This document shows positions 654 through 20,056 of a stretch of DNA of 22,507 nucleotides, piece by piece. The stretch is from the IMG/VR virus record IMGVR_UViG_3300027779_000172, positions 1-22,507 of that record; one strand, 5' to 3'. The notes below the pieces were generated by a model that searched no databases, was not told where the DNA came from, and saw only the letters and a list, made by a program, of their open reading frames with translations. The position numbers and the translations under genes were made by a program. This DNA comes from a virus. Positions within the stretch are counted from its first letter, which is position 1, and the number at the start of each line of letters is the position of its first letter.

Positions 654-1066
654 TGGCTAGCATTCAGGTAAGACCGCCAACAAGTTTTTCTATTAAAACA
701 GCTACTGCTGGTTCGGCAGTTTCAACCGCTGTAACCGTTGGAACATCTACTCCGGCTACTAGCACAGGAAATCTTTGGTTTGATACTGCCGTTGGATTTT
801 TAAAAGTATATGATGGTAGTAATTGGGACGCTCTAGGGTTAGTTGACTCTGACAATGATGGTAGATTTGAGTTTGATTCTACTTCTAACGGAGTATCTGC
901 ATTAACAAATGGTCTGCTAGCATCTTTTAGCAATAATGGTACAAGTATATTTTCTATTACCTATGATGGAATTACAAAACTAAGAAAAATAACAGGTTCT
1001 GCCCCAGCGGCAGTAACTGGAGGCACATATACCGATGGAGATGATTGGTATCTAGGTGTTGATTAA
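653..1066 (+). CDS. Short tail-fibre-like virion protein
   Basis: A 137-aa Ser/Thr/Gly-rich protein. Residues 37-62 contain 'GNLWFDTAVGFLKVYDGSNW', the common fibre motif in which an aromatic pair and a YDGSxW turn form one beta repeat. The C-terminus ends 'GGTYTDGDDWYLGVD'. There is no signal peptide or membrane segment. The ATG overlaps the preceding stop codon (TAATG), and GGGGAGG lies 13 bases upstream, so it is probably translationally coupled to the gene before it. It is likely a small fibre or adaptor subunit; an exact role cannot be read from the sequence. Confidence 0.7.
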   Translation: MASIQVRPPTSFSIKTATAGSAVSTAVTVGTSTPATSTGNLWFDTAVGFLKVYDGSNWDALGLVDSDNDGRFEFDSTSNGVSALTNGLLASFSNNGTSIFSITYDGITKLRKITGSAPAAVTGGTYTDGDDWYLGVD

Positions 1067-1091
1067 TAAATAATAAAAAAAGGATATACAA

Positions 1092-1292
1092 ATGGGGCTA
1101 ATAAAGAATTTAAAAACTGCAAAAAATACTGTGACTGAGGGCTACGATGGAAAATTTAATATTAAAGAGGTAAGTTATCTCTTAAATATCATTGAAAGCA
1201 TTGACCACAATGGTAAAATGCTTGAACAAGCGTTATCCTGTAAACAGAAATTGAAAGATAGCCTTGAAAAACTAACAAAATACACGGAGTAA
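1092..1292 (+). CDS. Small helical protein paired with tail fibre (copy 1)
   Basis: A 66-aa charged, helix-rich protein of unknown function, with an AAAGGA tract 8 bases before the ATG. Residues 26-57 (EVSYLLNIIES...GKMLEQ...KQKLK) match in pattern residues 12-42 of the small protein encoded at 2814-3017 (IIES...GKIVEN...KLKMIK). Both sit immediately upstream of a fibre that begins MATWKxV, so the pair looks like a duplicated unit. Possible roles are a fibre assembly factor or a small structural subunit; neither is shown by the sequence. Confidence 0.65.
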   Translation: MGLIKNLKTAKNTVTEGYDGKFNIKEVSYLLNIIESIDHNGKMLEQALSCKQKLKDSLEKLTKYTE

Positions 1293-1295
1293 GTT

Positions 1296-2807
1296 ATGGC
1301 AACTTGGAAAAAAGTAGTAACCGAGTCTGCTGCCGGGGAGATTTCCCAAAATGCAGCAGGACTAACAACAGAATTAGCAATAGCATCAGGAGGAACCGGA
1401 GCAACTAATGCGTCAAATGCTATATCGGCATTAGGCGCAGCTAGAAGTGGTGCAAATAATGATATTACATCAATCACGGGACTTACAACCGACTTAGCCG
1501 TAGCACACGGTGGTACTGGTTCAGGTACCGCAAGTGCTGCTCGTACCGCTTTAGGTCTAGCAATCGGTAGTGATGTTCAGGCTTTTGGTACTCATTTATC
1601 TACTTGGGGAGTTGTTTCGCCATCAACGAATGGTAAATCTCTTGTAGCTGCCGCTGATTATGCTGCAATGAGGACGTTACTTGCAGTTGCTCCTCTTGCC
1701 TCACCTACTCTTACTGGAACTCCTTTGTCAACAACACCATTAACATCGGATAATACCACAAAAATAGCAACTACTGCCTATGTTAAGGCTCAAGGATATG
1801 CAACAGCATCTGGAGATATAGAAGGCGTAACGGCTGGAACAAATCTTAGTGGCGGTGGAACTAGCGGTACAGTTACCATTACTCTAGCAGATGCTTCTGC
1901 TACAGCAAAAGGTGCAGTCGAGCTAGCAACTACTGCCGAAACTAACACAGGAAGTGATACTGCAAGAGCAGTAACTCCTGCTGGCTTAGAAAGTTGGACA
2001 GGCAATGATAATATTACTACTTTGGGAGATATAGCACAGGGTACTTGGGAAGGTGGTGTTATAGCCGAGGCTTATCTCCAAAATCAAAGTGGGACAAATA
2101 CAGGTGATGAAGCCGCAGCAAGTGCAACAGCAGCAGGTATTGTAGAACTTGCCACAGCGGCTGAAGTGACTTCTGGTACTGATACTTCAAGAGCAATTAC
2201 AGCGGCTGGAGTAAAGGTAGAATTAGATAAGAAATCTTTAATAGCCGGAAGTGCTAGTATCGTAACAGTAGGTACTATCGGAACTGGTACTTGGCAGGGT
2301 ACAACAGTTGCTGTAGACCAAGGTGGAACTGGAGTAACAACAAAAACTGGAACTGGTAATGTGGTATTGAGTGCTAGCCCGACATTTACCGGGACAATAG
2401 ATGCTGCTGCTATCACAACCTCTGGAGACCTAACTGTAGGTGGAACATTAATCTCTACTGAAACTGAAATTCTCAAAGTTGAAGACAGTATGATTATTGT
2501 TAACGCTGGAGTAGGTACTGGCTCAACTGCTTTCGATGGCGGAATAATGGTTGAACGTGGCGATAATGTGACAGGAACTCAGGGTGTAGTTAAAGTTGCC
2601 GGAGATAATGTCGGTATTATGTGGGACGACAGCGAAGGATATTTTAGGTTTTCTTCTGGTCCGTCAGATACTGCATTTTTTGCAGGAGGCTATCTAGCTC
2701 AAGCTAGCAACAGCACGGGGACTGCTCCGGCTGATGACGAATCTGGAGCAATAGGTTCAATTCACGTTAAAACTGATACTCAGCTTGTTTACATTAGAAC
2801 AGCTTAA
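1296..2807 (+). CDS. Tail fibre protein, MATWKKV type with GGTG repeats
   Basis: A 503-aa fibre. It opens with 'MATWKKVVTES', an N-terminal signature of fibres in many marine phages, and is followed by 'GLTTELAIASGGTGATNA' and 'GLTTDLAVAHGGTGSGTA', two copies of the GGTG fibre repeat. The middle contains two related segments, 'GAVELATTAETNTGSDTARA' and 'GIVELATAAEVTSGTDTSRA', typical of repeated shaft units. The C-terminal part (TSGDLTVGGTLISTETEI...GSIHVKTDTQLVYIRTA) resembles the distal part of T4-like marine fibres. Composition is dominated by Gly, Ala, Thr and Ser. The start has CGGAGTAAG upstream and lies 3 bases after the previous stop. It probably contributes to receptor binding. Confidence 0.85.
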   Translation: MATWKKVVTESAAGEISQNAAGLTTELAIASGGTGATNASNAISALGAARSGANNDITSITGLTTDLAVAHGGTGSGTASAARTALGLAIGSDVQAFGTHLSTWGVVSPSTNGKSLVAAADYAAMRTLLAVAPLASPTLTGTPLSTTPLTSDNTTKIATTAYVKAQGYATASGDIEGVTAGTNLSGGGTSGTVTITLADASATAKGAVELATTAETNTGSDTARAVTPAGLESWTGNDNITTLGDIAQGTWEGGVIAEAYLQNQSGTNTGDEAAASATAAGIVELATAAEVTSGTDTSRAITAAGVKVELDKKSLIAGSASIVTVGTIGTGTWQGTTVAVDQGGTGVTTKTGTGNVVLSASPTFTGTIDAAAITTSGDLTVGGTLISTETEILKVEDSMIIVNAGVGTGSTAFDGGIMVERGDNVTGTQGVVKVAGDNVGIMWDDSEGYFRFSSGPSDTAFFAGGYLAQASNSTGTAPADDESGAIGSIHVKTDTQLVYIRTA

Positions 2808-2813
2808 CAACAT

Positions 2814-5245
<2,432 letters not shown>

Positions 5246-5260
5246 AGGAAGTACATAATT

Positions 5261-5536
5261 ATGGCACTTAAAAAAGAAACAATAATAGACAAAATTGAAG
5301 TCATTGGTGGATTTAAGAAAATAGGAATAAGGGAAGCAACGGTTCTTTACGAAGGTACTGATGCAAGTGGTTGGACAGAGTTATCACGCTCAATGCACAA
5401 AAAGGTTTTAACTCCTGATGTAGATGTATCGAGTGAACCAACCGAAGTTCAAGATATAGCCAACCTAGTTTGGACAGATGCAATCAAAGCATCTTGGGCT
5501 AGTTATGTTGAAATAGTAAATCTTGAAAATGACTAA
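5261..5536 (+). CDS. Small fibre-region protein
   Basis: A 91-aa acidic protein beginning 'MALKKETIIDKIEVI', with 'GIREATVLYEG', 'HKKVLTPDVDVS' and 'IANLVWTDAIKASW'. This arrangement is typical of a short protein encoded directly after tail fibres in marine phages; I recognise the pattern but know no proven role. AAAGGAAG lies upstream of the ATG. The stop codon lies inside the first of three TGACTAAG repeats that precede the next gene. A small virion or assembly protein is the likeliest reading. Confidence 0.7.
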   Translation: MALKKETIIDKIEVIGGFKKIGIREATVLYEGTDASGWTELSRSMHKKVLTPDVDVSSEPTEVQDIANLVWTDAIKASWASYVEIVNLEND

Positions 5537-5587
5537 GTATGACTAAGCTGTGACTAAGTTGGGAATACAATCACAATATAACATAAT
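5530..5587 (+). promoter_or_regulatory. Three TGACTAAG iterons and promoter-like sequence
   Basis: TGACTAAG occurs exactly at 5530-5537, 5540-5547 and 5551-5558, with start-to-start spacing of 10 and 11 bases, close to one helical turn. The third copy abuts a -35-like TTGGGA (5559-5564), and 17 bases further is a -10-like CATAAT (5582-5587), about 27 bases before the oxygenase start. The arrangement fits activator sites on one DNA face upstream of a promoter for the oxygenase and lysis genes. The repeats are seen directly; the promoter role is inference. Confidence 0.45.
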
Positions 5588-5613
5588 ATAAAGGGAATTG
5601 AGGGTAAAAAATA

Positions 5614-6186
5614 ATGACAAAAACGGAAGAGAGAGAAGTAAGAGATGCAATCTTTGAAAAATACTATATTGTTGATGATTTATATGATGAAGTAGAGATA
5701 AAGAATATTGAAAAATCTATAGAACATATTAGTTATGCTCAGGCAGATACGGTTAGCAAGGACCCTGATGATGATTACAGGGTATCTAGCGTTAAGTGGA
5801 TACCTTTTGAAAACGACTGGATATACGACAGGATTTGGGAGCATTCCAATATTGCTAATAATGAATTATGGGGATTTGATGTTATAGGGTTTAAAGACTC
5901 CGCACAATTTACAAAATATACAGCCCCTACAGGCAAATATGACTACCACCTAGACATAAACGGGGAAGGGATTAATCATCGCAAAATAAGCGTAATTTGC
6001 GCCTTAAACGATGGCTATAAAGGTGGGGGTGTAGAGTTCAAAACTGGTAGGGAGACTCACGCACTAGATTTAAAAAAGGGTCAAGCTGTTTTTTTCCCGT
6101 CGTTTTTTTTACATAGGGTGTTGCCAATCACGGAAGGAGTAAGAAAGAGCTTGGTTCAATGGATTTCTGGAGAACCATATCGATGA
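5614..6186 (+). CDS. 2OG-Fe(II) oxygenase (PKHD-type hydroxylase)
   Basis: A 190-aa protein with the double-stranded beta-helix signature of Fe(II)/2-oxoglutarate dioxygenases. The iron ligands fit H112 and D114 (YHLD) and H167 (FFLHRV); R177 (RKSLVQW) is placed to bind the 2-oxoglutarate carboxylate. The core 'KISVICALNDGYKGGGVEF' and 'KKGQAVFFPSFFLHRV' is typical of the phage/prolyl-hydroxylase-like branch. Members hydroxylate proteins or modify bases; the substrate here cannot be told. GAGGG lies upstream of the ATG, and three iterons and a promoter-like site precede the gene. Its TGA overlaps the ATG of a 29-aa membrane peptide. Confidence 0.85.
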   Translation: MTKTEEREVRDAIFEKYYIVDDLYDEVEIKNIEKSIEHISYAQADTVSKDPDDDYRVSSVKWIPFENDWIYDRIWEHSNIANNELWGFDVIGFKDSAQFTKYTAPTGKYDYHLDINGEGINHRKISVICALNDGYKGGGVEFKTGRETHALDLKKGQAVFFPSFFLHRVLPITEGVRKSLVQWISGEPYR

Positions 6187-6272
6187 GGTTTTTAAATATA
6201 ATATTTATTTCTTATATTCTGTTTAGTATATTCTGTTTAGTTATGGATAAAAATAGGAAGTTACTTGAGTGA
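6183..6272 (+). CDS. 29-aa single-span membrane peptide
   Basis: A very small reading frame whose ATG overlaps the oxygenase stop (ATGA). It encodes about 20 hydrophobic residues (RFLNIIFISYILFSIFCLVM) followed by a charged tail, DKNRKLLE. Its stop overlaps the TTG start of the next gene, so it is locked into a chain of coupled genes. A single span with a short basic tail fits a holin/antiholin-like or other lysis accessory peptide, but the cysteine context is not a good lipobox. Much of the hydrophobic span is encoded by a perfect 14-bp tandem repeat (6213-6240). Confidence 0.5.
   Translation: MRFLNIIFISYILFSIFCLVMDKNRKLLE
6213..6240 (+). repeat. Perfect 14-bp tandem duplication
   Basis: TATATTCTGTTTAG occurs at 6213-6226 and again immediately at 6227-6240. 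Because 14 is not a multiple of 3, the copies are read in different frames in the 29-aa peptide, yet both encode hydrophobic residues. It may be a slippage duplication. Confidence 0.8.
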
Positions 6273-6594
6273 ACAGCCCAAAACTGCTAGAAGTTATAGG
6301 GGGACTGTGGTTGATGATAACGCTATTGTTTCTATTAACCTTAAATGGTTGGGTCAGTTACTTGTCCTTGTTGCTATGCTCGTTTATGGTTATTGGCGCA
6401 TTGAAAGCAGATTGGGTAACCTTGAAGAAGCGATGCTTACGGCAGATGTTAAGATTGGGGACCTTCTTGGTAAACACATCGTGGAGGAGACTTTACAAAG
6501 AGAGCAGCTAGAAGAGAAAGTAAGTTTTTATGAGAAAGAGTTTAACATAAACCCCCTAAGCTGGGGAAAAAGAAAAGGGAATCGAAAAAAATGA
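6265..6594 (+). CDS. Membrane-anchored coiled-coil protein of the lysis region
   Basis: A 109-aa protein translated from TTG, with AGGAAG 6 bases upstream; no ATG fits. Residues 1-27 are polar and predicted cytoplasmic, residues about 28-47 form one membrane span (WLGQLLVLVAMLVYGYW), residues 48-95 are a charged coiled coil, and the tail is very basic (KRKGNRKK). The topology resembles an inner-membrane spanin or a marine-phage membrane protein of unknown role, and the position between the oxygenase and further small membrane proteins supports a lysis or envelope function. It overlaps both neighbours. Confidence 0.7.
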   Translation: MSEQPKTARSYRGTVVDDNAIVSINLKWLGQLLVLVAMLVYGYWRIESRLGNLEEAMLTADVKIGDLLGKHIVEETLQREQLEEKVSFYEKEFNINPLSWGKRKGNRKK

Positions 6595-6836
6595 GTGAAG
6601 AAAAAAAGTATATTGACAAGTGTTCAATAAAACAAAAGGACTTTGAGAATGGCGGAAGTGTGTTAAACTGCGCTTTTGGTATAGACGAGTTAAAGGAAAT
6701 AGCGGTTGATGGTTGGGTTAATATTACTATTTGCGAAAGAAGGGAACCTTCGGAAAATGGAAAAACTCATTATGCTAAAGTAGACACATATAGGAGCAAG
6801 AAGGCAGACACTAAAAGTGATGACTTGCCTTTTTAG
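6591..6836 (+). CDS. Small protein with SSB-like acidic C-terminal tip
   Basis: An 81-aa soluble protein coupled to the previous gene (ATGA) with AAAAGGGA upstream. The body (KQKDFENGGSVLNCAF...WVNITICERREP...KTHYAKVDTYRS) resembles short proteins recurrent in marine phages. The C-terminus is KSDDLPF, very close to the DDxPF tip of bacterial single-stranded DNA-binding proteins, through which host repair and replication enzymes dock. A recognisable OB-fold is not obvious at this length. It may be a reduced SSB or a decoy for SSB-tip partners. Confidence 0.65.
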   Translation: MSEEKKYIDKCSIKQKDFENGGSVLNCAFGIDELKEIAVDGWVNITICERREPSENGKTHYAKVDTYRSKKADTKSDDLPF

Positions 6837-6845
6837 ATAGTTACT

Positions 6846-6998
6846 ATGCCTATGCCGTTTATGTGCCACGAGTGTGATAAATACACAAGGAACAAAAACG
6901 GTATATGCAGCACCTGTTTAGATATGCTAGCACGACCAGCAGCACCAGCTAAACCAGAAAAAAAAGCTAGTGTCCCAAAGAAGGTTAAGGATGACTGA
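6846..6998 (+). CDS. 50-aa CxxC zinc-finger peptide
   Basis: A short frame starting at 6846. Residues 7-24 contain CHEC and, after 10 residues, CSTC, a four-cysteine treble-clef or zinc-ribbon spacing. The tail is Ala/Pro/Lys-rich (ARPAAPAKPEKKASVPKK). The TGA overlaps the ATG of the next gene (ATGACTGA). There is only a weak purine tract before the ATG, so translation probably depends on coupling to the gene ending at 6836. The cysteine pattern and the fit between two coupled genes support it as real. Function unknown. It contains one TGCTAGCA (6925-6932). Confidence 0.6.
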   Translation: MPMPFMCHECDKYTRNKNGICSTCLDMLARPAAPAKPEKKASVPKKVKDD

Positions 6999-7302
6999 AT
7001 TTCTAGAAGTATATTCAGAGGCGGGAATGATAGGGGTTGTGGGTGTTATGTTTTGTTTTATGGTATATCAAAATGCCAAAAGAGCCGAAGAACAAGGAAA
7101 GTCCATAAATGATTTACAGATTGAAAACAGGGGTCAATCAGAGACTCTTGAGAATACTGAAAGTATGATTATCAAATTAATTGAACGATGGAACAAGTCG
7201 GATGATACTTCTCTTAGACATAGGGAAGATATTCTTCGTGAAATTTCAGACTTAGCTGAGAAAGTAAGCTACCTGTCTGGAAGAGTAAATGGGAATAAAT
7301 GA
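6991..7302 (+). CDS. BhlA/UviB-like putative holin
   Basis: A 103-aa protein: short N-terminus, one membrane span at about 10-28 (GMIGVVGVMFCFMVY), then a long charged coiled-coil-like tail (NDLQIENRGQSETLENTESM and RHREDILREISDLAEKVSYL). This is the plan of BhlA/UviB-type bacteriocin/holin proteins, which have one N-terminal span and a cytoplasmic helical tail. I chose the ATG at 6991 over an upstream in-frame GTG because AAGG lies before it and it overlaps the previous stop. Position beside other tiny membrane proteins and a lysozyme-like gene supports a lysis role. Confidence 0.55.
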   Translation: MTEFLEVYSEAGMIGVVGVMFCFMVYQNAKRAEEQGKSINDLQIENRGQSETLENTESMIIKLIERWNKSDDTSLRHREDILREISDLAEKVSYLSGRVNGNK

Positions 7303-7304
7303 TA

Positions 7305-7451
7305 ATGGATAGTCTAAGGGTCACAGGTATAAGCACAAGTTTGGGGCTTGCATATTGGACAGACCTACTTTCCGGTGTTTTGATGTGTATAATGTTTGCG
7401 GTACAGATTTACTATTTGTATCTAAAAACAAAAAAGATAAAGGAGTCATAA
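7305..7451 (+). CDS. 48-aa single-span membrane protein
   Basis: Residues about 20-40 (DLLSGVLMCIMFAVQIYYLYL) form one hydrophobic span followed by a basic tail, KTKKIKES. The gene begins 2 bases after the previous stop and ends directly against the next ATG (TAAATG). It is one of several tiny membrane proteins here, and a holin, antiholin or spanin-like role fits the neighbourhood, but no family is recognised. Confidence 0.55.
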   Translation: MDSLRVTGISTSLGLAYWTDLLSGVLMCIMFAVQIYYLYLKTKKIKES

Positions 7452-7604
7452 ATGGAATGGTTAGCTGAAAATTGGGAAACGGTTCTTGTTGTTTTTTTCT
7501 GTTTAGAAAAAATAGTAAAGCTGTCCCCGTCAGACAAAGACGATATTCTTGTGGATGTTGTATTTCAAGGTTTAACTAAAATGATAAAGGGAGAAGAAAA
7601 ATGA
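7452..7604 (+). CDS. 50-aa lysis-region small protein
   Basis: It begins directly after the preceding stop, with AAAGGAG upstream, and overlaps the next gene. The N-terminal half is moderately hydrophobic (WETVLVVFFCLEKIVKL). The second half has 'SPSDKDDILVDVV', which resembles 'TPSKEDDKIVAKI' in the following gene, so the two may be distant paralogues. Similar short proteins recur near marine-phage lysis genes; no function is established to my knowledge. Confidence 0.55.
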   Translation: MEWLAENWETVLVVFFCLEKIVKLSPSDKDDILVDVVFQGLTKMIKGEEK

Positions 7605-7756
7605 GTTGGGCATCAAAATATGTGCAGAGACAAGTTAGAAAGAGAGGACTGAAGGGGTTTATCATTTGGGTATTAGACTTGGTTGCAAAAGCTACTCCGT
7701 CTAAAGAAGACGATAAAATTGTTGCAAAAATCAAAGAAGCAATGAAATCTTTTTAA
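7601..7756 (+). CDS. 51-aa basic amphipathic protein
   Basis: It overlaps the previous gene by 4 bases (ATGA) and has GGGAGAAG upstream. The N-terminus is strongly basic (KYVQRQVRKRGLKG), followed by 'FIIWVLDLVAKA', a short hydrophobic or amphipathic helix, and 'TPSKEDDKIVAKIKEAM', shared in pattern with the preceding protein. Possibly membrane-associated. The 62 bases to the next gene (7757-7818) hold nothing I can identify. Confidence 0.55.
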   Translation: MSWASKYVQRQVRKRGLKGFIIWVLDLVAKATPSKEDDKIVAKIKEAMKSF

Positions 7757-7818
7757 AGCCACCCTTACGTTCAGCATAGTATTTGCTTGTCGTTGTTTAA
7801 ATCTTTACATTAAGAGCG

Positions 7819-12572: not shown

Positions 12573-12616
12573 TGACAAGTAATAATTATTGGTTTCATAG
12601 TGAAGGAGAATACATA

Positions 12617-12841: not shown

Positions 12842-12842
12842 T

Positions 12843-13163
12843 ATGACTCATCCATCAAAAAGGAAAGGTAATCGTGTTGAGAATCTAGTAAAGGATATCT
12901 TTATAGGTCACGGATTTAAGTCAATCCGTGCCTATGCTAGCAACGGTTTAGCTCTGGGGGAACACGAGGAGTGCGACCTAACTGCTGAAATGTTTGGTCA
13001 CAAATGGCGATTTCAAATAAAAGCTAGGAAGGTAATAGCCAAGTGGATTAAACCTAATATGGAAAACGTGGATGCTCAAATTATCAAGCAAGATAGGGAA
13101 GAGCCATTGATAGTAATGCCATTAAGCAGATTTATAGAGGAGTTGAGAAATGCCCGACAATAA
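12843..13163 (+). CDS. Holliday-junction-resolvase-like nuclease
   Basis: A 106-aa protein with the archaeal-Hjc-like PD-(D/E)xK arrangement: E13 in 'GNRVENLVKDIF', D45 in 'HEECDLTAEM', and Q58-x-K60 in 'WRFQIKARK', followed by a basic helix and 'DREEPLIVMPL'. These residues form a Mg-dependent active site that cuts branched DNA. In phages such enzymes resolve recombination intermediates before packaging. It begins 1 base after the previous stop and overlaps the replication gene by 14 bases. Assignment rests on the three motif elements and size. Confidence 0.7.
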   Translation: MTHPSKRKGNRVENLVKDIFIGHGFKSIRAYASNGLALGEHEECDLTAEMFGHKWRFQIKARKVIAKWIKPNMENVDAQIIKQDREEPLIVMPLSRFIEELRNARQ

Positions 13164-14019
13164 GCCCCCGGCTTTTATGTTTTATGCCGGAGATTTCTTA
13201 TCGAGCATAGATGTTGCTTTTATGGATATGGAGTTGAGAGGTGTTTACATAACTCTGTTAGCATACTCTTGGCTAGAGAACGGGATACCAAATGAAGACA
13301 GGAAATTAAAAGTTATCTTACAATGTAGTGACGAGGACACTTACTCAAGGTATAAATCTGAGGTTATAGATGCTTGTTTTAAGCTAGAAAAAAATACTTG
13401 GAGACAACCAAGACAGGAAAGAGAAAGAGCCAAGCAACAAGAAAGAAAGGATGCTCACATTAAAGCCGGAAAAATGAGTCAAGATTTAAGGAGAGCAAGA
13501 GAAAATAAAAGGGGAAAAGGAGCATTATTGCGTGTGAGTAAAGGGAGCAACGCTCTAGAGTTGGAAAGAGAAGTAGAATTTGAAACTGAATTTTGGAAAG
13601 CGTATCCTAGAAAAACAGGAAAGAAGAAAACAAAAGCACTATATAATAAAATAAGAAAAAGCACAAGCAAAGAAGACGTAATAAATGGATTAAAAAACCA
13701 TATAAAAGGTTGTTGGAGTGGGAAAGAAATTGAATTTATACCATATCCAATGACTTGGCTAAATGGGGAATGTTGGAATGATGATGCTAGCAATATATCT
13801 GGTGAGGTCACAAAGGTGATTAAGAGAACTTTTGTGAAGGTTTGCCCCGTCTGTGGAGCAACTAAGGATGGATGCGACAAGAACTCTGTCGATGTTTGCC
13901 GTAGGCACAAACCTAGCTTTGATATGTTTTCAGAGAATAAAGTGCTAATGGACGATGATTTACTAATGATTAATGGCATACGTTTAGATTTAGGTTTGGA
14001 ATTAGTAGGAGAAAAGTAA
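13150..14019 (+). CDS. DUF1376-type replication initiation protein
   Basis: A 289-aa protein. Residues 7-50 (PAFMFYAGDFLSSIDVAFMDMELRG) match DUF1376, the N-terminal winged-helix domain of phage replication initiators. Residues 88-125 are very basic. Residues 148-209 (FWKAYPRKTGKKK ... YPMTWLNGECW) form the C-terminal domain found in replication O-like/helicase-loading proteins. A late cysteine cluster (C232, C235, C242, C250, H253) may bind zinc. GAGGAG is 7 bases before the ATG. It would recognise the phage origin and load host or phage helicase. No origin is obvious within this frame. Confidence 0.75.
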   Translation: MPDNKPPAFMFYAGDFLSSIDVAFMDMELRGVYITLLAYSWLENGIPNEDRKLKVILQCSDEDTYSRYKSEVIDACFKLEKNTWRQPRQERERAKQQERKDAHIKAGKMSQDLRRARENKRGKGALLRVSKGSNALELEREVEFETEFWKAYPRKTGKKKTKALYNKIRKSTSKEDVINGLKNHIKGCWSGKEIEFIPYPMTWLNGECWNDDASNISGEVTKVIKRTFVKVCPVCGATKDGCDKNSVDVCRRHKPSFDMFSENKVLMDDDLLMINGIRLDLGLELVGEK

Positions 14020-14033
14020 TAAATTTAACAGAA

Positions 14034-14190
14034 CACCCTTAGTATAAATTGGGGTGACAAATGAACAGAGAGCTAGTTTGGTTTGGCTATTAGTCTAGTT
14101 CTCAAAAATAAGCGCAAAAGAGAGAAATCTCGATGGTGGATTATTTGGTTATTCTCCAAATTACCCATTTTTATTCACCATCACGCTTAT
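14034..14190 (+). ncRNA. Multi-helix structured RNA candidate 1
   Basis: The 192-base gap 14020-14211 is packed with helices. (i) 14034-14039 with 14051-14056. (ii) 14068-14076 with 14095-14103, 9 bp. (iii) An outer 7-bp helix 14108-14114/14184-14190 (ATAAGCG/CGCTTAT) enclosing two arms: 14120-14123/14128-14131 with a GAAA tetraloop, and 14132-14140/14174-14182 (GATGGTGGA/TTCACCATC), which carries an inner 6-bp arm 14143-14148/14156-14161 with a 7-base loop. G-U pairs (72-99, 139-175, 39-51 in the last digits) fit the plus-strand transcript. A weak TTGGAA-N17-ATAAAT promoter (13996-14024) would start transcription close to helix (i). It could be a 5' leader element of the 14212 gene or a free RNA. 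Confidence 0.6.
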
Positions 14191-14211
14191 AACCTATAGA
14201 CGGAGAGAAAT

Positions 14212-14679
14212 ATGGCAACAAAAAAAGAAGTAACCGCCCTGAAAGAGAAATATTATGAGGGGAAGAAGGAAGTAAATCGCCTGAATGAGCAGTTAAATCA
14301 TCTTGGTGGTCATTTAAAAAATGTAATTTTTCATATAGATGAAATATACGCTAAATTACTCGTTGAATCTGACGATGCAAAGAGGAACAGGAATTATAGT
14401 AAAAAAGACCTTATTCGCAAGATTAAAGGCATTGTAGACTATTCTATTAGATGGATTGGTGTACCAAAGAAACAAGTCTATCAATGGAACCCATTGGATT
14501 TATATAAAAACTATGATTGGTGGGAAGAGAAAAAAGAAGACAGATATTTCGTAGGAAAAGAAATACTAGATTCAATATACCCAAATGAAAAAGAACTAAA
14601 AGAAATTTTAGACGGAAGCGGCATTAGTGAGGACGAGCTAAAGACACCGGACTTGGCAGATGCTAGCACGAAAAAATGA
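14212..14679 (+). CDS. Unknown 155-aa protein between two structured RNAs
   Basis: I recognise no family. Residues 1-40 are a charged coiled coil (KEKYYEGKKEVNRLNEQLNHL). The middle is basic and aromatic (RNRNYSKKDLIRKIKGIVDY and VYQWNPLDLYKNYDWWEEKK), and the C-terminus is acidic and low-complexity, ending ADASTKK. There is no signal, span or cysteine motif. CGGAGAG lies 6 bases before the ATG. It is the last rightward gene, isolated by 192 bases of structured sequence before it and about 220 after. The basic aromatic core would suit nucleic-acid binding, so it may act with one of the flanking RNAs; that is inference. Confidence 0.7.
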   Translation: MATKKEVTALKEKYYEGKKEVNRLNEQLNHLGGHLKNVIFHIDEIYAKLLVESDDAKRNRNYSKKDLIRKIKGIVDYSIRWIGVPKKQVYQWNPLDLYKNYDWWEEKKEDRYFVGKEILDSIYPNEKELKEILDGSGISEDELKTPDLADASTKK

Positions 14680-14692
14680 AATCACATAGCTC

Positions 14693-14875
14693 AAGGTGAA
14701 GTAGCCGAAACAAATCGCCCTTCGCATTTCAACTCCGCATTAATCAATAGGGGGGCTTGATAAGTAGGTTATTTCACCTTAATATTTAGATAGACACTAG
14801 GGAATATATATTGTAAAGTCGTTTCGTCGGCTCACAACTACCTCGGTTTACTCGCCAATTATTTCTTAGTGTCTA
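14693..14875 (+). ncRNA. Structured RNA candidate 2, two long helices
   Basis: Two consecutive long helices fill the gap after the 14212 gene. Helix A: 14693-14706 with 14767-14780, 14 continuous bp (AAGGTGAAGTAGCC/GGTTATTTCACCTT) including two G-U pairs. It encloses hairpin 14743-14747/14757-14761 whose G-rich loop can pair with GCCC at 14717-14720, a possible pseudoknot. Helix B: 14791-14806 with 14860-14875, 16 continuous bp including two G-U pairs, enclosing a 53-base loop with an inner GTAAA/TTTAC pairing (14813-14817/14847-14851). All G-U pairs would be C-A mismatches on the other strand, so the plus transcript is the folded one. A terminator follows 23 bases later. Confidence 0.6.
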
Positions 14876-14898
14876 CATCCTATCCCAATAGGCAAAAA

Positions 14899-14925
14899 AA
14901 AGGGGGAGCATTTTGCTCCCCCTTT
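14899..14925. terminator. Bidirectional hairpin terminator between converging operons
   Basis: A perfect 12-bp stem (AAAGGGGGAGCA, loop TTT, TGCTCCCCCTTT). On the minus strand it is followed by a run of at least seven T; on the plus strand by TTTCTCC. Rightward genes end at 14679 and leftward genes end at 14948, so it stops both transcription units. Confidence 0.9.
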
Positions 14926-14947
14926 CTCCGTTATCTAGGTAGTCAGA

Positions 14948-15085
14948 CTAACCACTTCTTTTTATTGCTTGAATTGTAACCGAAACCACAACTGCCATTA
15001 TCCCTATGGCTATTGACCAAATTAGGAACCCTACTCCCAATGCTAGCACTTGAACTATCCAACCTGCTACGTCTAGAATTATCAT
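14948..15085 (-). CDS. 45-aa single-span membrane protein
   Basis: Last gene of the leftward operon. The frame starting at 15085 encodes a long hydrophobic stretch (WIVQVLALGVGFLIWSIAIG ... IMAVVVSVTI) ending IKRSG, a clear membrane protein. A longer frame over the same DNA (14943-15134) gives a Ser/Asn/Arg-rich product without features and is rejected. The ATG shares its A with the upstream stop (TAATG), and GGGA lies 9 bases before. Function unknown. Confidence 0.65.
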   Translation of the reverse strand: MIILDVAGWIVQVLALGVGFLIWSIAIGIMAVVVSVTIQAIKRSG

Positions 15086-15330
15086 TATTCATCCCTTTTT
15101 TGTTCTGTATCTTTATCTTCAAATAAATCATCACAATTATTCAATATGGTTTCACTTAATTGTTCGTGACTCACGCACCAATCCATTTCTTCTTCAGCTA
15201 TGCCAACTTGTTCTTCCCACGATATTTCTTTAATATCTATTGGAGACATTTCTTCATCCCACCAAGCTATAATAATTTCTTCATTACTATCATAGAGAGA
15301 AAGTTTTTTAATAGCATCTTTAATTTTCAT
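15085..15330 (-). CDS. Unknown acidic 81-aa protein
   Basis: Starts at 15330 (MKIKDAIKKLSLYDSNEEII), because AAGGAGTACAGAG directly precedes that ATG; the longer frame from 15390 lacks a site and adds an unlikely Ile-rich lead. The product is acidic with several Trp (AWWDEEMSPIDIKEISWEEQ) and ends in a charged tail. Its stop overlaps the start of the next membrane protein. Such small acidic phage proteins often modulate host enzymes, but no family is recognised. Confidence 0.6.
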   Translation of the reverse strand: MKIKDAIKKLSLYDSNEEIIIAWWDEEMSPIDIKEISWEEQVGIAEEEMDWCVSHEQLSETILNNCDDLFEDKDTEQKRDE

Positions 15331-15517
15331 CTCTGTACTCCTTATAAAGTTTTTTGTAATTATATTTGTTATGAATATCCCATCTATCATATTGAGCAGA
15401 TAGCTTTTTAAGTCTTTGATGCGCCTTTCCCCCTTTTTTTATTTTTCCTTTTTCTAATAATTGTTCATAAAAACTTACTAATAAAGATGTTTTCATTTTA
15501 TAATTTGTCTTAGCCAT
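15320..15517 (-). CDS. Unknown basic 65-aa protein
   Basis: A strongly basic, Tyr/Lys-rich protein (MAKTNYKMKTSLLVSFYEQL ... AHQRLKKLSAQYDRWD ... YNYKKLYKEYRDEN). AAAGGA is 9 bases before the ATG. It overlaps the next gene by 11 bases. Composition suits nucleic-acid binding; no fold is recognised. A compact structured element precedes it (15535-15596). Confidence 0.6.
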   Translation of the reverse strand: MAKTNYKMKTSLLVSFYEQLLEKGKIKKGGKAHQRLKKLSAQYDRWDIHNKYNYKKLYKEYRDEN

Positions 15518-15534
15518 AGTTATTATCCTTTCTT

Positions 15535-15596
15535 ACAGGGAGAGAGGTCTGACCTTTTTCACAAGACTAATGCACATATCTTGCTACTCTCCCTGT
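15535..15596 (-). ncRNA. Compact three-way-junction element in leftward operon
   Basis: In the 95-base gap between genes, ACAGGGAGAG (15535-15544) and CTCTCCCTGT (15587-15596) form a perfect 10-bp stem. Inside are two arms: AGGT/ACCT (15545-15548/15552-15555) and CAAGA/TCTTG (15562-15566/15579-15583). Genes on both sides are leftward, so the minus transcript would carry it, just before the ribosome-binding site of the 15517 gene. It may be a leader element, processing site or binding site. No poly-T follows, so it is not a standard terminator. Confidence 0.45.
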
Positions 15597-15612
15597 TACA
15601 TATTAGTTATGC

Positions 15613-15852
15613 TTAATCAGTTCCCTTGATTGCCTCGGCAAGAGCATTGATTCCCTTAGCCATAGCCTCGATTGATGTTCTTGGAAAAGCCACACCTTTT
15701 TTAGTAGGAATCATTTTACCGTCTTCTAGCTTAATCCAAGTCCTAATTTGGGCTAGTTGCTTACCGCCTAATTCGTCAAGGGTGAATCTGATTTCTGAAT
15801 TAGATTTTTCATTTGGTTTATGTACTGCTACTACGTTGTTGTCGTCGTTCAT
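15613..15852 (-). CDS. PC4/YdbC-like ssDNA-binding protein
   Basis: A 79-aa protein. Residues 21-72 (IRFTLDELGGKQLAQIRTWIKLEDGKMIPTKKGVAFPR) follow the PC4 pattern: two strands around a GGKxLxxIRxW turn, a beta-hairpin with DGxxxPTKKGV, then a C-terminal helix (EAMAKGINALAEAI). PC4 proteins dimerise and bind single-stranded DNA; phage members are linked to transcription or replication. AGGAG lies upstream of the ATG. A hairpin plus T-run precedes the gene. Confidence 0.8.
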   Translation of the reverse strand: MNDDNNVVAVHKPNEKSNSEIRFTLDELGGKQLAQIRTWIKLEDGKMIPTKKGVAFPRTSIEAMAKGINALAEAIKGTD

Positions 15853-15882
15853 AACGATAACTCCTGTTTGTTTACTCGTTTA

Positions 15883-15939
15883 AAAAAATTATTGCTTGGC
15901 ATATCAAGAACAATATGATAACAAGTGCTAAGTGCCAAG
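15883..15939 (-). terminator. Hairpin with T-run upstream of the PC4-like gene
   Basis: CTTGGCA (15895-15901) pairs with TGCCAAG (15933-15939), and inside TATCA/TGATA (15902-15906/15916-15920) extends the fold. On the minus strand the stem is followed within about 6 bases by a run of seven T (15882-15888). This fits an intrinsic terminator or attenuator between the 15945-16466 gene and the PC4-like gene. The long loop makes it weaker than the 14899 terminator. Confidence 0.4.
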
Positions 15940-15944
15940 TCACT

Positions 15945-16466
15945 CTACGCCTCTGCTCCACTAGAGAACCCTGTGGTGATGTCTCCATCACCGAAGTCAT
16001 TGATGAATTTTTTCATATCTGACTCGTCAATATCAGCATTTACACCCATACCAATTCCATCTTCTGTCTCGAAGATATCAACTCCGTCGGGAATTATGTC
16101 AGCACTCTTACACATAGATGTCAAAGAAAGAGACATCCCTAGAACTGTGCCGAGACTCCTGTCGTGTTGTTCGTTGTTGAAGTATGCTAGCATCATCATA
16201 GCGTCCTTTCTGCTTAGGCACTCTTTATTTACTAATGCTCTGATACAATTACATAAACTATCCATTATGTCTCCAATAATTGCCGACATATAAGCATTCA
16301 TTTTCCCATCACCTTTTATATATTTTTTCATCTCGTCACTATACTCTTCAAAATCTTCATAGCTACCGAAGATATCTCTTGGATTTGGTGCATCTGATTC
16401 GATGGTTCTTCTACGGGCATCATTTAGTTTATCTTGTGTCAGGTATTTTGATTTTGCTTTGGGCAT
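15945..16466 (-). CDS. Unknown 173-aa acidic protein
   Basis: No family recognised. The N-terminus is basic (MPKAKSKYLTQDKLNDARRR); the middle is helical with a Met/Cys-rich stretch (GDIMDSLCNCIRALV and RKDAMMMLAYFNNE); the C-terminus is acidic (DIDESDMKKFINDFGDGD). TAGGAGAGA lies just before the ATG. It lies 8 bases after the 16475 gene, so the two are likely one transcript and may function together. A TGCTAGCA lies at 16185-16192. Confidence 0.65.
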   Translation of the reverse strand: MPKAKSKYLTQDKLNDARRRTIESDAPNPRDIFGSYEDFEEYSDEMKKYIKGDGKMNAYMSAIIGDIMDSLCNCIRALVNKECLSRKDAMMMLAYFNNEQHDRSLGTVLGMSLSLTSMCKSADIIPDGVDIFETEDGIGMGVNADIDESDMKKFINDFGDGDITTGFSSGAEA

Positions 16467-16474
16467 TCTCTCTC

Positions 16475-16924
16475 CTAGTTAGCTTGTTCGTTTTTGTTCA
16501 TAGCGATTGCTATCATTTTATTTAATTTTTTTAACTGATTTCTGATTTTTAATCCACCCTTCTTCCTGTTATATTTTTCAATAATATTATATCTGTCTTG
16601 TTTGGTTGGTGGGGTTGGATTTGTGGGGTAGCCGTTGGTCACATCAACTAAATCCACCGCTAGAGACTCTATTTCCGTTGCTAATATTCTTAATTCGTCG
16701 TTGTCCATTGGGTAATATTCCAATGGGTCGGGAAGTCCCTTCGTTCCCAACCCCTTACTTAGCGAGAGAGTAGCTAAAATTGATTTTGTGGTATCTATCA
16801 TATCAATAACTTGACCGAGTGATTCAAATAAATTTACTTCTAAAAAATCTCTTGGGAATTGGTCAGAGAAATCTGTCTCCGTTGCCCTGTTCGATGCTCT
16901 AACTTTGTCGTTCATAAAATCCAT
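16475..16924 (-). CDS. Unknown 149-aa protein, first gene after a leftward promoter
   Basis: Helix-rich protein without a recognised family (DFLEVNLFESLGQVIDMIDT; LRILATEIESLAVDLVDV), with a Pro-rich link (NPTPPTK) and a basic C-terminal helix (NRKKGGLKIRNQLKKLNK). AGGGAG lies 8 bases before the ATG at 16924; an ATG three codons later is also possible. It follows a 176-base non-coding stretch with a promoter-like -10 and a 13-bp inverted repeat, so it probably heads a separate leftward transcript. Confidence 0.65.
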   Translation of the reverse strand: MDFMNDKVRASNRATETDFSDQFPRDFLEVNLFESLGQVIDMIDTTKSILATLSLSKGLGTKGLPDPLEYYPMDNDELRILATEIESLAVDLVDVTNGYPTNPTPPTKQDRYNIIEKYNRKKGGLKIRNQLKKLNKMIAIAMNKNEQAN

Positions 16925-16954
16925 TTCGTCGGCTCCCTTTTTAATATTGTTTTC

Positions 16955-17019
16955 TTTATTTTACCTTTCACTTTGTTCAAGGTAAAATAAATAAAACTAT
17001 ATTATTAACTAATATTATA
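16955..17019 (-). promoter_or_regulatory. Leftward promoter-like -10 and 13-bp inverted repeat
   Basis: On the minus strand an extended -10 (TGTATAAT) lies at about 17021-17014; a -35 is poor. About 20-50 bases downstream a perfect 13-bp inverted repeat (TTTATTTTACCTT at 16955-16967 with 16979-16991, loop 11) lies between the promoter and the gene starting at 16924. It could be a leader hairpin or a repressor site. The rest of the 16925-17100 gap is very AT-rich, with two small 5-bp hairpins near 17034-17047 and 17076-17090. Confidence 0.4.
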
Positions 17020-17100
17020 CATAAATAACTTAAATAGCAATAGCTATCTTTGCTTGTCAGTATTGGTTTCTCCTTAGCTTTACTAAGCATAATATTTGTA

Positions 17101-17211
17101 TTACTCAAGGTTTTGGAATGGGTTAAACGGTGCTAGCACGTTGATTTTAGGAGGGGCGGGAACACCACGAGATTCCTCAAGTGATGTTCCCTTGTCGAGA
17201 GAGAGCGACAT
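17101..17211 (-). CDS. 36-aa Pro-rich peptide
   Basis: A short frame 4 bases after the stop of the membrane protein above it, with AAAGAGATAG before the ATG. It encodes a mixed, non-repetitive peptide ending in a proline-containing half (PAPPKINVLAPFNPFQNLE). It contains one TGCTAGCA (17131-17138). Support is its tight fit in the operon and its start site; function unknown. Confidence 0.4.
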   Translation of the reverse strand: MSLSLDKGTSLEESRGVPAPPKINVLAPFNPFQNLE

Positions 17212-17215
17212 AAAT

Positions 17216-17371
17216 CTATCTCTTTTTAAAGGACTCTTTAATCCTCTTGATAGCATCTTTCGTATCGGGGATAAACATATCTTTGAATGCGAAGTAAACT
17301 ACAGGTACTAGAGTCCCATATACTACAACAATTATTATTACCGTTAATACATCTCCAAGTTGCTGATTCAT
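17216..17371 (-). CDS. 51-aa single-span membrane protein
   Basis: Residues 8-29 (VLTVIIIVVVYGTLVPVVYF) form a strong membrane span, followed by an amphipathic basic tail (DAIKRIKESFKKR). AAGGAG lies 6 bases before the ATG, and the start overlaps the previous stop (ATGA). The frame on the opposite strand across this region is featureless. It may be a small inhibitor or anchor protein of the early region; the role is unknown. Confidence 0.65.
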   Translation of the reverse strand: MNQQLGDVLTVIIIVVVYGTLVPVVYFAFKDMFIPDTKDAIKRIKESFKKR

Positions 17372-17637
17372 ACTATTCTCCTTATGTTAGATACTATTTC
17401 TTCAACATTTATTTCATCACAATGCTCTTTGCAATTAGAACATATATCAGAAAAAGATATTAAAGCACCGCAACAATCGCTTTCCTTACTCCCCGGATAA
17501 GAATCCACCGACTCGTCATCTACCTTGACTTGGTAGGGGAATGCTAGCACTCCGTCACCTTCTGCCTCTAGAAGTACGTCAACTATTTGGTCTTTTTGAG
17601 ATTCGTTTTCAACGGTTATTGTTATTATTTTAGACAT
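17368..17637 (-). CDS. Small Cys-rich zinc-binding-like protein
   Basis: An 89-aa protein. Residues 1-40 read as a beta-alpha-beta start (KIITITVENESQKDQIVDVL). C55, C56, C66, C69 and C73 (CCG..., CSNCKEHC) suit zinc binding. AAGGAG is 7 bases before the ATG. It overlaps genes on both sides by 4-8 bases. No family recognised. Confidence 0.6.
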   Translation of the reverse strand: MSKIITITVENESQKDQIVDVLLEAEGDGVLAFPYQVKVDDESVDSYPGSKESDCCGALISFSDICSNCKEHCDEINVEEIVSNIRRIV

Positions 17638-17821
17638 TATTATTCTCCTTTTCTTGGATGATAAAGTCTAATACTTCTAGCATTATCATCCGTTGGTCTT
17701 CATATCCCCTGACATAATAGTCTTGGGTCTTAACTTTTTTAATAAACTCTCTCATTTTCCTTAGATATTTAAGTATATCTTCGTCATAGTAAAGAGTTTT
17801 AGATTCTTTTCCAAAGTACAT
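17630..17821 (-). CDS. Unknown 63-aa helical protein
   Basis: A charged, Tyr-rich helical protein (DILKYLRKMREFIKKVKTQD; QRMIMLEVLDFIIQEKENNN). AAGGAGAG lies 5 bases before the ATG; it starts 10 bases after the previous stop and its end overlaps the next gene by 8 bases. No recognised family. Confidence 0.6.
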   Translation of the reverse strand: MYFGKESKTLYYDEDILKYLRKMREFIKKVKTQDYYVRGYEDQRMIMLEVLDFIIQEKENNNV

Positions 17822-17831
17822 ACTGCTCTCC

Positions 17832-18722
17832 TTATTTGTAATGACCCTGTGAGTATTCCATTGTCTCTGCTAGCTTTCGTATTTCCCTGTCCAAAGTATC
17901 TACGGTAGCATCGACACTCTTGGTGTCTTTTTGTTCAACGACATAGAACACATTTGCTCTTTCTTTAGCATCTTCAGACATTTCTTTCTGATATCCCATA
18001 CCGTGGTCAAATCCGAAGACACCTCTCTTGATTTGGAACAATAGGTCTCGAAGTATTCCGTTGGTTGCTATCGACATAACCCTCTGCAAATCCAACACTT
18101 CGTGACTTCTCTTTACCGGGAAGAGGACAACAAACTCCCTTACTCCGGGGAGAGAACCTTCATACTGACAACAATAAGTAGCGTGAATCTCGACGGCATT
18201 CCCCATCCTTGTAAGAATGTCTGCTAGCACCGAAGCCGTAGCCCCTAGTCTTGCAAATTCCATCTCATCGTTGAAGTGAGCAAGGGAGAAATTGATACCT
18301 ATTCTCACATTTCTCCTCTTGTTGTCTCTCACCATTTTGTCCCAATAGTCGTCCCTATTGACCATAACCTTGTCGATGTTAAGTTCATCTCCATCGTCAC
18401 TACATCTCCTAACCCTCTTCGATGATAGTCCTTGCCCTAAGTAAGAAGTAATGTCGAGTTGTTGTTCTACTTCTTCTCGATATTTTTCAAAGAAGTCCCT
18501 TACTTTCTTACTGCTCTTGCCGATAGTAAGATTCTCGACAAGTTGCTCCCTTGTCTTAACCGACCCATAAGTCCAATCCTTGTCGGTTATTTTGAAGACA
18601 TCGTTAGTCAGACAAGCCTCGATATAGTCTTCTGCTGAATCAAATTCAAGACAGACGATTTCCTTCTCGGCACTATAGTCATATGATACATCGTTCTTTT
18701 CTGATAGAATATAATCAGACAT
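17832..18722 (-). CDS. AAA+-partner protein, DUF7192/VWA-like
   Basis: A 296-aa protein encoded 14 bases after the CobS-like ATPase. Residues about 25-100 are helical with 'GKSSKKVRDFFEKYREEVEQ'. Residues 137-180 (RRNVRIGINFSLAH... RLGATASVLADILTRMGNAVEI) match the core of a phage family I associate with DUF7192: a strand 'vRIxxNxs', a charged loop, then 'RxGAxxxxLxDxLxxxGxxVE'. This core is reminiscent of a degenerate von Willebrand A domain, the usual partner of MoxR/CobS ATPases. GAGGAG precedes the ATG. It probably forms a chaperone-like or remodelling complex with the ATPase; the target is unknown. Confidence 0.55.
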   Translation of the reverse strand: MSDYILSEKNDVSYDYSAEKEIVCLEFDSAEDYIEACLTNDVFKITDKDWTYGSVKTREQLVENLTIGKSSKKVRDFFEKYREEVEQQLDITSYLGQGLSSKRVRRCSDDGDELNIDKVMVNRDDYWDKMVRDNKRRNVRIGINFSLAHFNDEMEFARLGATASVLADILTRMGNAVEIHATYCCQYEGSLPGVREFVVLFPVKRSHEVLDLQRVMSIATNGILRDLLFQIKRGVFGFDHGMGYQKEMSEDAKERANVFYVVEQKDTKSVDATVDTLDREIRKLAETMEYSQGHYK

Positions 18723-18736
18723 ATTTTACTCCTCGA

Positions 18737-20056
18737 TTAAAGTGTTATTGGTTGATTGACATTGACACCATCTAAGCTAGATACTCTCGGTTCTGCTCTC
18801 TTGTAGTTGGTGGGAAACTTCTCCATCATCTCTTCAAGATTGATTTTCGATTTCTCTTCGTCTGTCCATTGAGCCGTCAAGTCAGCTAATGCGTAGAAGA
18901 TGCTAGCTTTTGATAAGCCGCCCTCTATCTTCTTGCCCTTTCCTAGTGTCATCGGAGTTACCGATTTTTCTGCCACTACACCATTGACGGCTTGGTGAAT
19001 CATTTTTGCCGAAGTGGAAAAAGCACGGGTAGAGATGTTGTATCTTAGCTTTTGGTCTCTAATCCGAGTCCTTAGTTCGAAGAGAGCATCTGCTAGCTCT
19101 TTATATTCCCCGACTATAGCTTTCTCGATTTCATTGTCGTAATCTATCGATATTACTGCTCCGGTGAATCTATCAAGAGTTGCCATATCTTGTTGGTTCC
19201 TTCCAACGTATTGGTGACTATTTCCATACCCTGTGCTATTATCGATGGCAATAAACGAGAAGTCATCGTGACGAAATCGATACGGATTCTCTGGGTCATT
19301 TGGAGTGAACATCAATCCTTGACCATCTAGCATAGAGTTATGAATGAGAGACATATTGGGGTCAAATCCATTGAACTCGTCGGCTACAATAAAGCCACCT
19401 TCCGAGAATGGTTTGACATATTGACCCTCAATATACCGACCATCAAATGTCGATTTCCCTAATAGTTGAGCCTCACTAACTCCGGCAGTACCGACGGCAT
19501 AAGTATATTTAAACTTATCATCTTCGTCCCAATCTTTAGCCTTGGCAATTACCTTAAATAGCATCTCGGCTATTGTCGATTTCCCTGTTCCTCTTTCACC
19601 GACCATAAAAAGCTTGCCGTGAGTTATCAGTTTATCGAGACAATCTTGGTATTGAAAGTGGATTAAATCTCCATCGACTTGGTCAAAAATTACCTTATCC
19701 TTGACGGTGATTTGGACAGGTCTCGTTACTTCCTCGACTCTCTCCTCAATCATCTCCTCGATTTTCTTCCCATACTTGTCCTCCATCTTCTCGAGAACCT
19801 TTTCCGACGAGTAGTCTCCAATCACTTTCTCCATATCCGACAGACTTTTCTGCCCTGTAGTACCGTTGTTGTCCGACGATGAACTATTCCCACTACTTTG
19901 GTCGGAAGTATCTTTACCGTCGTTACTTGGTGGATTCCAACTTCCGTCTAGAAAGCCGTCTAATTCGTGTCTTCTAGCAAAAGCCGTCCAACTTGAACTG
20001 ACACCGTCAGCTTCACATTTTCTTCTAGCGGATTTTCTCATTTCTGAAACATTCAT
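18737..20056 (-). CDS. CobS/MoxR-like AAA+ ATPase
   Basis: A 439-aa protein from the ATG at 20056, chosen because AAGGAGAA precedes it; a longer frame to 20161 would run through a 17-bp inverted repeat. Residues 1-43 are basic and helical, 44-70 a Ser/Asn/Gly linker, and the ATPase starts near 145: Walker A GERGTGKST (153-161), 'GTAGVSEAQLLG', Walker B FIVADE (222-227), sensor 1 IAIDNSTG (269-276) and YVGRNQQDMATLDRF (283-297) with candidate Arg finger R296. This last motif is characteristic of CobS-like phage ATPases. They remodel partner complexes; phage roles are not settled. Three GCTAGC cores lie in this gene or the next one leftward. Confidence 0.85.
   Translation of the reverse strand: MNVSEMRKSARRKCEADGVSSSWTAFARRHELDGFLDGSWNPPSNDGKDTSDQSSGNSSSSDNNGTTGQKSLSDMEKVIGDYSSEKVLEKMEDKYGKKIEEMIEERVEEVTRPVQITVKDKVIFDQVDGDLIHFQYQDCLDKLITHGKLFMVGERGTGKSTIAEMLFKVIAKAKDWDEDDKFKYTYAVGTAGVSEAQLLGKSTFDGRYIEGQYVKPFSEGGFIVADEFNGFDPNMSLIHNSMLDGQGLMFTPNDPENPYRFRHDDFSFIAIDNSTGYGNSHQYVGRNQQDMATLDRFTGAVISIDYDNEIEKAIVGEYKELADALFELRTRIRDQKLRYNISTRAFSTSAKMIHQAVNGVVAEKSVTPMTLGKGKKIEGGLSKASIFYALADLTAQWTDEEKSKINLEEMMEKFPTNYKRAEPRVSSLDGVNVNQPITL

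Follow-up and report, generated by a model that had tools for sequence, protein, structure and literature searches.

A highly iterated, HIP-like palindrome of new sequence in a clade of tailed phages

The virus record IMGVR_UViG_3300027779_000172 of IMG/VR, analysed here over its full length of 22,507 nucleotides (the window), is a 22.5-kb fragment of a tailed phage in which the palindrome TGCTAGCA is strongly over-represented. The palindrome is in excess and exact, its carriers form one group on the phage tree, its copies are conserved in position and spaced at random, and the phage records searched hold no match to three methyltransferase families. While other explanations can be put forward, we tentatively favour the view that TGCTAGCA is an iterated recognition site which was acquired once by one tailed-phage clade and has been kept largely copy by copy, with its reader supplied by the host.

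The window holds 17 copies of TGCTAGCA (starting from 915 to 18222) and 27 of GCTAGC (first at 656, last at 19092-19097); TGCTAGCA is its own reverse complement, and the same 17 places are found on both strands. These counts and the claimed excess, both given in a preliminary description of this DNA, were reproduced, the expected numbers being 0.29 (zero-order Markov model) and 0.24 (first-order) for TGCTAGCA, and 3.3 and 2.8, respectively, for GCTAGC. A maximal-order model gives 17.1 TGCTAGCA for the window, though only because the motif itself supplies its 7-mers. An excess of CTAG had also been described; it is present but small (125 vs 83 expected), and is carried by GCTAGC and CTAGCA. In 200 synonymous-codon shuffles of the window, with junction bases kept or not, the mean number of TGCTAGCA was 0.6-1.1 and the maximum 5, against 13 observed copies in open reading frames (ORFs) of at least 100 amino acids (coding copies), thus the excess goes beyond codon use.

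Twelve close relatives were found (G001-G006, G009-G011, L132, L134 and L144), with portal or capsid identity of 73-100% where these proteins were covered and otherwise phosphoesterase or ATPase identity of 53-100%; as G001 (IMGVR_UViG_3300009425_000025, 46.3 kb) and G002 nearly duplicate the window, and L134 shares 2.9 kb with L144, distinct lineages are fewer than 12. The excess is shared by all 12, at densities of 0.52-1.06 per kb. The window has 17 copies, G001 has 24, G004 (45.8 kb) has 38 and G011 (15.1 kb) has 12, where the first-order expectation is 0.2-0.7 each, and 200 codon shuffles within each of these four gave means of 0.4-2.0 and maxima of 3-6, against 13, 21, 27 and 9 coding copies, respectively. 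In a 155-kb pool, which counts the L134/L144 overlap with its four copies twice without effect on the conclusion, 115 copies were observed against 2.1 (first order), 3.5 (second order) and 13.8 (third order) expected, the last figure being high because its 4-mers already hold part of the motif's own excess. Relative to Markov expectation, TGCTAGCA has accumulated about 30- to 70-fold. One-mismatch neighbours occur 0-22 times each in the same pool: words with the central TA altered do not exceed chance, being observed 0-5 times (2-8 expected), and those altered at outer positions 3-22 times (2-11 expected). Other 8-base palindromes are far behind, with 97 copies of TGCTAGCA and 12 of the next best in a 131-kb pool.

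Within the window, 14 of the 17 copies lie inside ORFs of at least 80 amino acids, on both strands (Table 1); the corresponding numbers are 21 of 24 in G001, where ORFs cover 88% of the sequence, and 27 of 38 in G004, where they cover 83%. The spread over both strands noted earlier is therefore confirmed, whereas the "several" codon phases described with it come down to two, used by 4 and 9 of the 13 coding copies of the window, only two being possible because the third places TAG in frame. Flanking bases are indeed not conserved, yet T before and A after the motif are rare (3 of 34 in the window). No regular spacing was seen, as gap lengths in three genomes are not distinguishable from random placement; hairpins around TGCTAGCA were not above background (13% vs 12%), and Rfam gave no match in the window. 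The random spacing and the location of most copies inside genes argue against operators, and TGCTAGCA would act on the whole genome, not as an operator for particular genes. With 24-38 copies scattered at random over each 46-kb record, a packaging site, suggested previously, is unlikely.

Table 1. Copies of TGCTAGCA and associated features in the window
Feature	Position	Strand	Remarks
Copy 1 of TGCTAGCA	915..922	.	In ORF 653-1066; TGATAGCA in 99.8% identical stretch of G001
Copy 2	3226..3233	.	In collagen-like ORF 3017-5245
Copy 3	4156..4163	.	In collagen-like ORF 3017-5245
Copy 4	4387..4394	.	In collagen-like ORF 3017-5245
Copy 5	6925..6932	.	Between ORFs 6591-6836 and 6970-7302
Copy 6	9336..9343	.	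In metallophosphoesterase ORF 8312-9790
Copy 7	9846..9853	.	In ORF 9787-10197
Copy 8	11927..11934	.	In ORF 11511-12572
Copy 9	12239..12246	.	In ORF 11511-12572
Copy 10	12935..12942	.	In RusA-like ORF 12843-13163
Copy 11	13785..13792	.	In replication-initiation-like ORF 13150-14019
Copy 12	14661..14668	.	At 3' end of ORF 14212-14679
Copy 13	15041..15048	.	Between convergent ORFs 14212-14679 and 15085-15390
Copy 14	16185..16192	.	In minus-strand ORF 15945-16466
Copy 15	17131..17138	.	Between ORFs 16475-16924 and 17368-17637
Copy 16	17542..17549	.	In minus-strand ORF 17368-17637; CGCTAGCA in near-identical G001 and G002
Copy 17	18222..18229	.	In minus-strand ORF 17832-18722
74-aa HTH_17 protein	10248..10472	+	PHROG matches: excisionase / transcriptional regulator, DNA-binding protein
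89-aa winged-helix protein, weak candidate reader	12572..12841	+	Pfam HTH_39
Absence of GATC, CATG, GGCC, CGCG	1..22507	.	Restriction-avoidance signature alongside the motif

The copies are kept in place beyond protein constraint. When G001 and G004 are aligned, an identical 8-mer stands opposite 67% of the copies, compared with 13% for flank-matched 8-mers, and over 14 overlapping record pairs the values are 55-100% and 11-48%, respectively. Where the amino acids are conserved, neither core codon differs between G001 and G004 for 16 of 20 copies (3.2 expected at 64% codon identity), and the same holds between G001 and G011 (8 of 9, 1.4 expected), L132 (8 of 10, 1.5), L134 (6 of 7, 1.4), G003 (6 of 7, 1.7) and G006 (4 of 4, 1.4), between G004 and G011 (14 of 14, 3.4) and L134 (8 of 8, 1.5), and between G003 and G006 (6 of 6, 2.6). 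This test counts shared copies from both sides (16 of 20 represents 8 shared sites), the pairs are not independent, and collagen-like genes and protein matches below 35% identity were dropped before counting. Among 18 control words tried on G001 and G004, 12 had at least one amino-acid-conserved copy; GCTAGCAT, which overlaps the motif, was unchanged 6 times (1.4 expected) and AGCACC 12 times (5.2 expected), and the remaining ten were near or below expectation. Three sites of the terminase-portal region are identical in G001, G004, G011, L132 and L134, with other bases in two sister records.

More distant records (15, with 43-59% identity in capsid or portal) show no excess: 13 have no copy in the stretch read, and the other two have one copy (three in that record's complete 46 kb) and two copies, respectively. 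Three records reached via other genes likewise hold no TGCTAGCA. In a portal tree of 17 rows (14 of them different, root not known), the five motif-rich rows cluster together with 100/100 support, separately from the 12 rows without the motif. One change on this tree would suffice, with gain as the simpler reading, and a single acquisition in one clade is most likely.

The same genomes have lost other palindromes. GATC, CATG, GGCC and CGCG are each at zero in the window (83, 69, 40 and 21 expected), and the first three are likewise missing from every one of the 13 motif-rich records, window included; CGCG is missing from G001 and present in G004, which instead lacks AGCT (204 expected) and GCGC (46 expected). 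Of the 64 six-base palindromes, 23 are at zero in the 131-kb pool. Purged palindromes are the trace left by hosts with many restriction systems, and the missing GATC, CATG and GGCC point to restriction-rich hosts. Sister phages avoid different sets: among 15 of them, five are wholly without CTAG (three of which share an identical portal row) and four show no strong avoidance. The avoided sets vary inside the clade while TGCTAGCA stays, as would fit a trait that belongs to a host species or genus, or to the phage, and not to individual restriction systems.

The pattern suggests that the infected cell contains something that reads TGCTAGCA sites, and a host-supplied reader, as has been proposed for the cyanobacterial highly iterated palindrome (HIP) HIP1, appears likeliest. 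A host activity, such as an orphan methyltransferase coupled to strand-directed mismatch repair, might act at TGCTAGCA; the phage would have adopted the word of its host lineage, and repair directed by the methylated palindrome would both create copies and hold them in place. The methyltransferase families PF01555, PF00145 and PF02086 had no match in nine records (seven motif-rich and two sister), thus a methylating activity would be the host's. We infer a host protein as the reader, the involvement of methylation or repair, and the same word in the host genome.

Several results weigh against a host-supplied reader acting on copies that are individually kept. A scan for three near-by copies in one genome per species, over 84,980 species, returned 34 stretches, all of them local repeat clusters (29 with one cluster and five with two), and no genome of comparable density, the estimated chance of catching one host genome being 0.09-0.91 at 0.5-1.0 copies per kb. 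In direct counts, the highest densities were about 46 per Mb among 194 cyanobacteria and about 37 per Mb among 369 gammaproteobacteria, both samples of larger groups, compared with about 520-830 per Mb in two 46-kb phage records, and none of eight further genomes counted came near the phage density. A host-matched genome signature, one of the possibilities raised earlier, is thus not established by these searches, whose power was limited; unsampled hosts are common. Nor were unrelated phages with the same signature seen, in a scan with almost no power for this: among the 80 of 90 phage stretches examined, many of which were operator-like arrays or tandem repeats, none had at least four clusters more than 150 bp apart. 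Turnover is also evident, as G001 and G004 do not have 13 of 29 ungapped coding copies in common, and in the weakest pair, G011-G010, matching is hardly above background (55% vs 48%). Two of 21 single-nucleotide differences between the window and G001 fall inside a copy (0.14 expected, P 0.009), so that individual copies are able to change, whereas the 30 differences between G001 and G002 all lie outside the copies.

Alternatively, a sequence-specific protein made by the phage could bind the sites and organise, protect, replicate or package the DNA, in which case the palindrome would be a phage invention that the host need not carry. We consider this possible, though less probable than a reader supplied by the host. 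The single group of motif-rich rows on the phage tree and the conservation of copies in place agree with it, as does the lack of any host with the word in the species scan and direct counts, and the HTH_39 winged-helix protein, alone among the genes with a recognised DNA-binding domain, is present in each of the four motif-rich records tested and missing from the five outside records, which makes it a weak candidate for the reader. However, a single origin makes any clade-specific gene correlate, and several others do; HTH_39 is a common phage domain, and we know of no phage-encoded system of palindromic binding sites spanning a genome. The HTH_17 protein is a poorer candidate because it is also present in the sister phage G582, which lacks the excess. 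Whether through a clade-specific protein or a host partner, the phage lineage may have evolved a genome-wide palindromic address, made of dozens of exact TGCTAGCA selected in position, a proposal about as probable as that of the phage-made reader; to our knowledge, no described phage system works as such an address.

It is unlikely that the sites label the phage DNA as self or protect it against a nuclease or other host defence in the manner of Chi and RecBCD, with more copies favoured in a phage that otherwise escapes restriction by losing sites: while the complete purge of GATC, CATG and GGCC makes defence pressure appear strong, and a palindrome would work in either direction, known Chi sites are non-palindromic and strand-biased, and Mu Gam-like end protection, to which the phage has a weak match (E 3.7e-6), would lessen the need for Chi. 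Still less probable are transcription operators or stoperators of a phage repressor. Unrelated phage contigs (L040, L044, L051, L104 and others) carry three TTGCTAGCAA within about 64 bp and few copies elsewhere; these arrays are probably repressor operators using the same core word, thus repressors that read it probably exist, and the HTH_17 protein does match excisionase and transcriptional-regulator families. On the other hand, TGCTAGCA falls inside ORFs in the window as described and, in G001, as often as the coding share predicts, its spacing is random, the TT..AA flank of the TTGCTAGCAA operators is rare in the window, and no integrase match was found among 36 proteins (from about 36 of 50 ORFs) scanned against Pfam or PHROGs. 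A by-product of codon use, amino-acid repeats or the removal of other palindromes is highly improbable. Although three of the 17 copies sit in a collagen-like gene and palindrome avoidance has left a strong mark on the genomes, no codon shuffle of the four genomes tested exceeded 6 copies (9-27 observed), sister phages with equally strong avoidance lack the excess (five of 15 avoiding even CTAG completely), and copies are kept at synonymous positions.

The source of this DNA is a tailed phage. The window overlaps G001 at 99.8-99.9% identity, both of its ends map onto both ends of G001, and about 2.0 kb is present in the window only, which puts the genome size at about 48 kb and is consistent with a map that is circular or circularly permuted. 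G001 encodes a terminase, a portal protein with P22-like portals among its remote named relatives, a capsid protein remotely similar to annotated ones, and a 2820-aa protein with a VanY-like domain. No named relative was found by megablast among 50,697 phage records, and protein matches are remote (at most 33% identity among the matches listed) and name no host. Shine-Dalgarno-like words of four to five bases were counted, without a shuffled control, ahead of 22 of 37 and 21 of 38 genes, and speak weakly against a Bacteroidota host. The collagen-like protein (Pfam PF01391, E 3.9e-33) has GPTG-type repeats and is possibly a fibre. By eye, the first 60 residues of the metallophosphoesterase resemble an added helix-turn-helix, where the domain scans gave no match. 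An AT-rich inverted repeat at 16942-17004, with 26-nt arms (92% complementary) and an 11-nt loop, lies upstream of the minus-strand ORF 16475-16924.

A second iterated element was observed in word counts of the pool with TGCTAGCA and collagen-like genes masked. CCGACG and CCGTCG occur 105 and 97 times (about 19 expected), clustered in the leftward module at 16.3-19.6 kb of G001 (from about 19.4 kb to the end of the window) and 22.9-31 kb of G004. Many lie in loops of short hairpins with differing but complementary stems; for CCGACGAG, 16 of 27 have stems of at least five pairs, compared with 12% in controls. Rfam gave no match to this element in the window, and it is possibly a protein-bound RNA element. 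The non-palindromic word ACCTAGCA is likewise enriched in the motif-rich pool (31 vs about 4-5 expected).

Cyanobacterial genomes hold HIP1-like palindromes by the thousand. The phages described here provide a small system open to direct tests of function, with about 25 copies in roughly 48 kb, a clade with the word, sister phages without it, and many individually conserved sites. Should the word be the host's, it would give a strong clue to which host an uncultured phage group infects; should it be the phage's own, it would represent a new kind of phage genome organisation. Titles and abstract openings in the literature searched, which most subscription journals lie outside, gave no report of a HIP in a phage, and the titles among the listed matches to the letters TGCTAGCA suggest primers and constructs.

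Comparison with known systems places TGCTAGCA closest to the HIPs. Restriction-site avoidance in phages is evident here as well in the total absence of GATC, CATG and GGCC, yet avoidance removes palindromes, whereas here one has accumulated. Chi sites are over-represented octamers read genome-wide, as TGCTAGCA is an over-represented octamer, but they are not palindromic and are strand-biased, and TGCTAGCA has neither their asymmetry nor their bias. The stoperators of mycobacteriophage L5 are dozens of short protein-binding sites over a phage genome, asymmetric, oriented and mostly between genes; TGCTAGCA similarly consists of many short sites across a phage genome but is palindromic and mostly inside genes, being neither intergenic nor oriented or arrayed as stoperators and operators are.

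HIP1 copies have been published to be conserved at orthologous positions beyond protein constraint, and a 2018 study reportedly dealt with their selection and periodicity. Copies of TGCTAGCA are likewise conserved at orthologous positions, although one of 14 record pairs is barely above background. The resemblance in style to HIP1 proposed in the preliminary description is borne out, in that TGCTAGCA is an exact octameric palindrome at roughly one (0.5-1.1) per kb, with its centre rarely altered, scattered through genes. According to Elhai 2015 (PMC4390886), HIP1 is GCGATCGC, alternate HIPs also occur in cyanobacteria, HIP density is 500-2500 per million, a range into which the density of TGCTAGCA falls, and changes in HIP1 are rarest at positions 4 and 5, as they are in TGCTAGCA. 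The model outlined there proposes that a methylated GC-containing palindrome directs mismatch repair and is thereby created and held in place (PMC4390886), and TGCTAGCA has GC on both strands, as that model requires of a methylated HIP; a term search of the text of that paper gives no "phage", "GCTAGC" or "TGCTAGCA". Unlike HIP1, TGCTAGCA is a different word, is carried by a phage clade and not by a cellular genome, and has no cognate methyltransferase seen in the phage records, and none of the 194 cyanobacteria has such a density. Membership of HIP1 proper fails on three differences, in the word, in its carrier and in the evidence for a methyltransferase; with phage DNA as its carrier and cyanobacteria at no more than about 46 per Mb, it is called HIP-like, not HIP1, and we class it among HIP-like palindromes as one with a new sequence, carried by a clade of phages.

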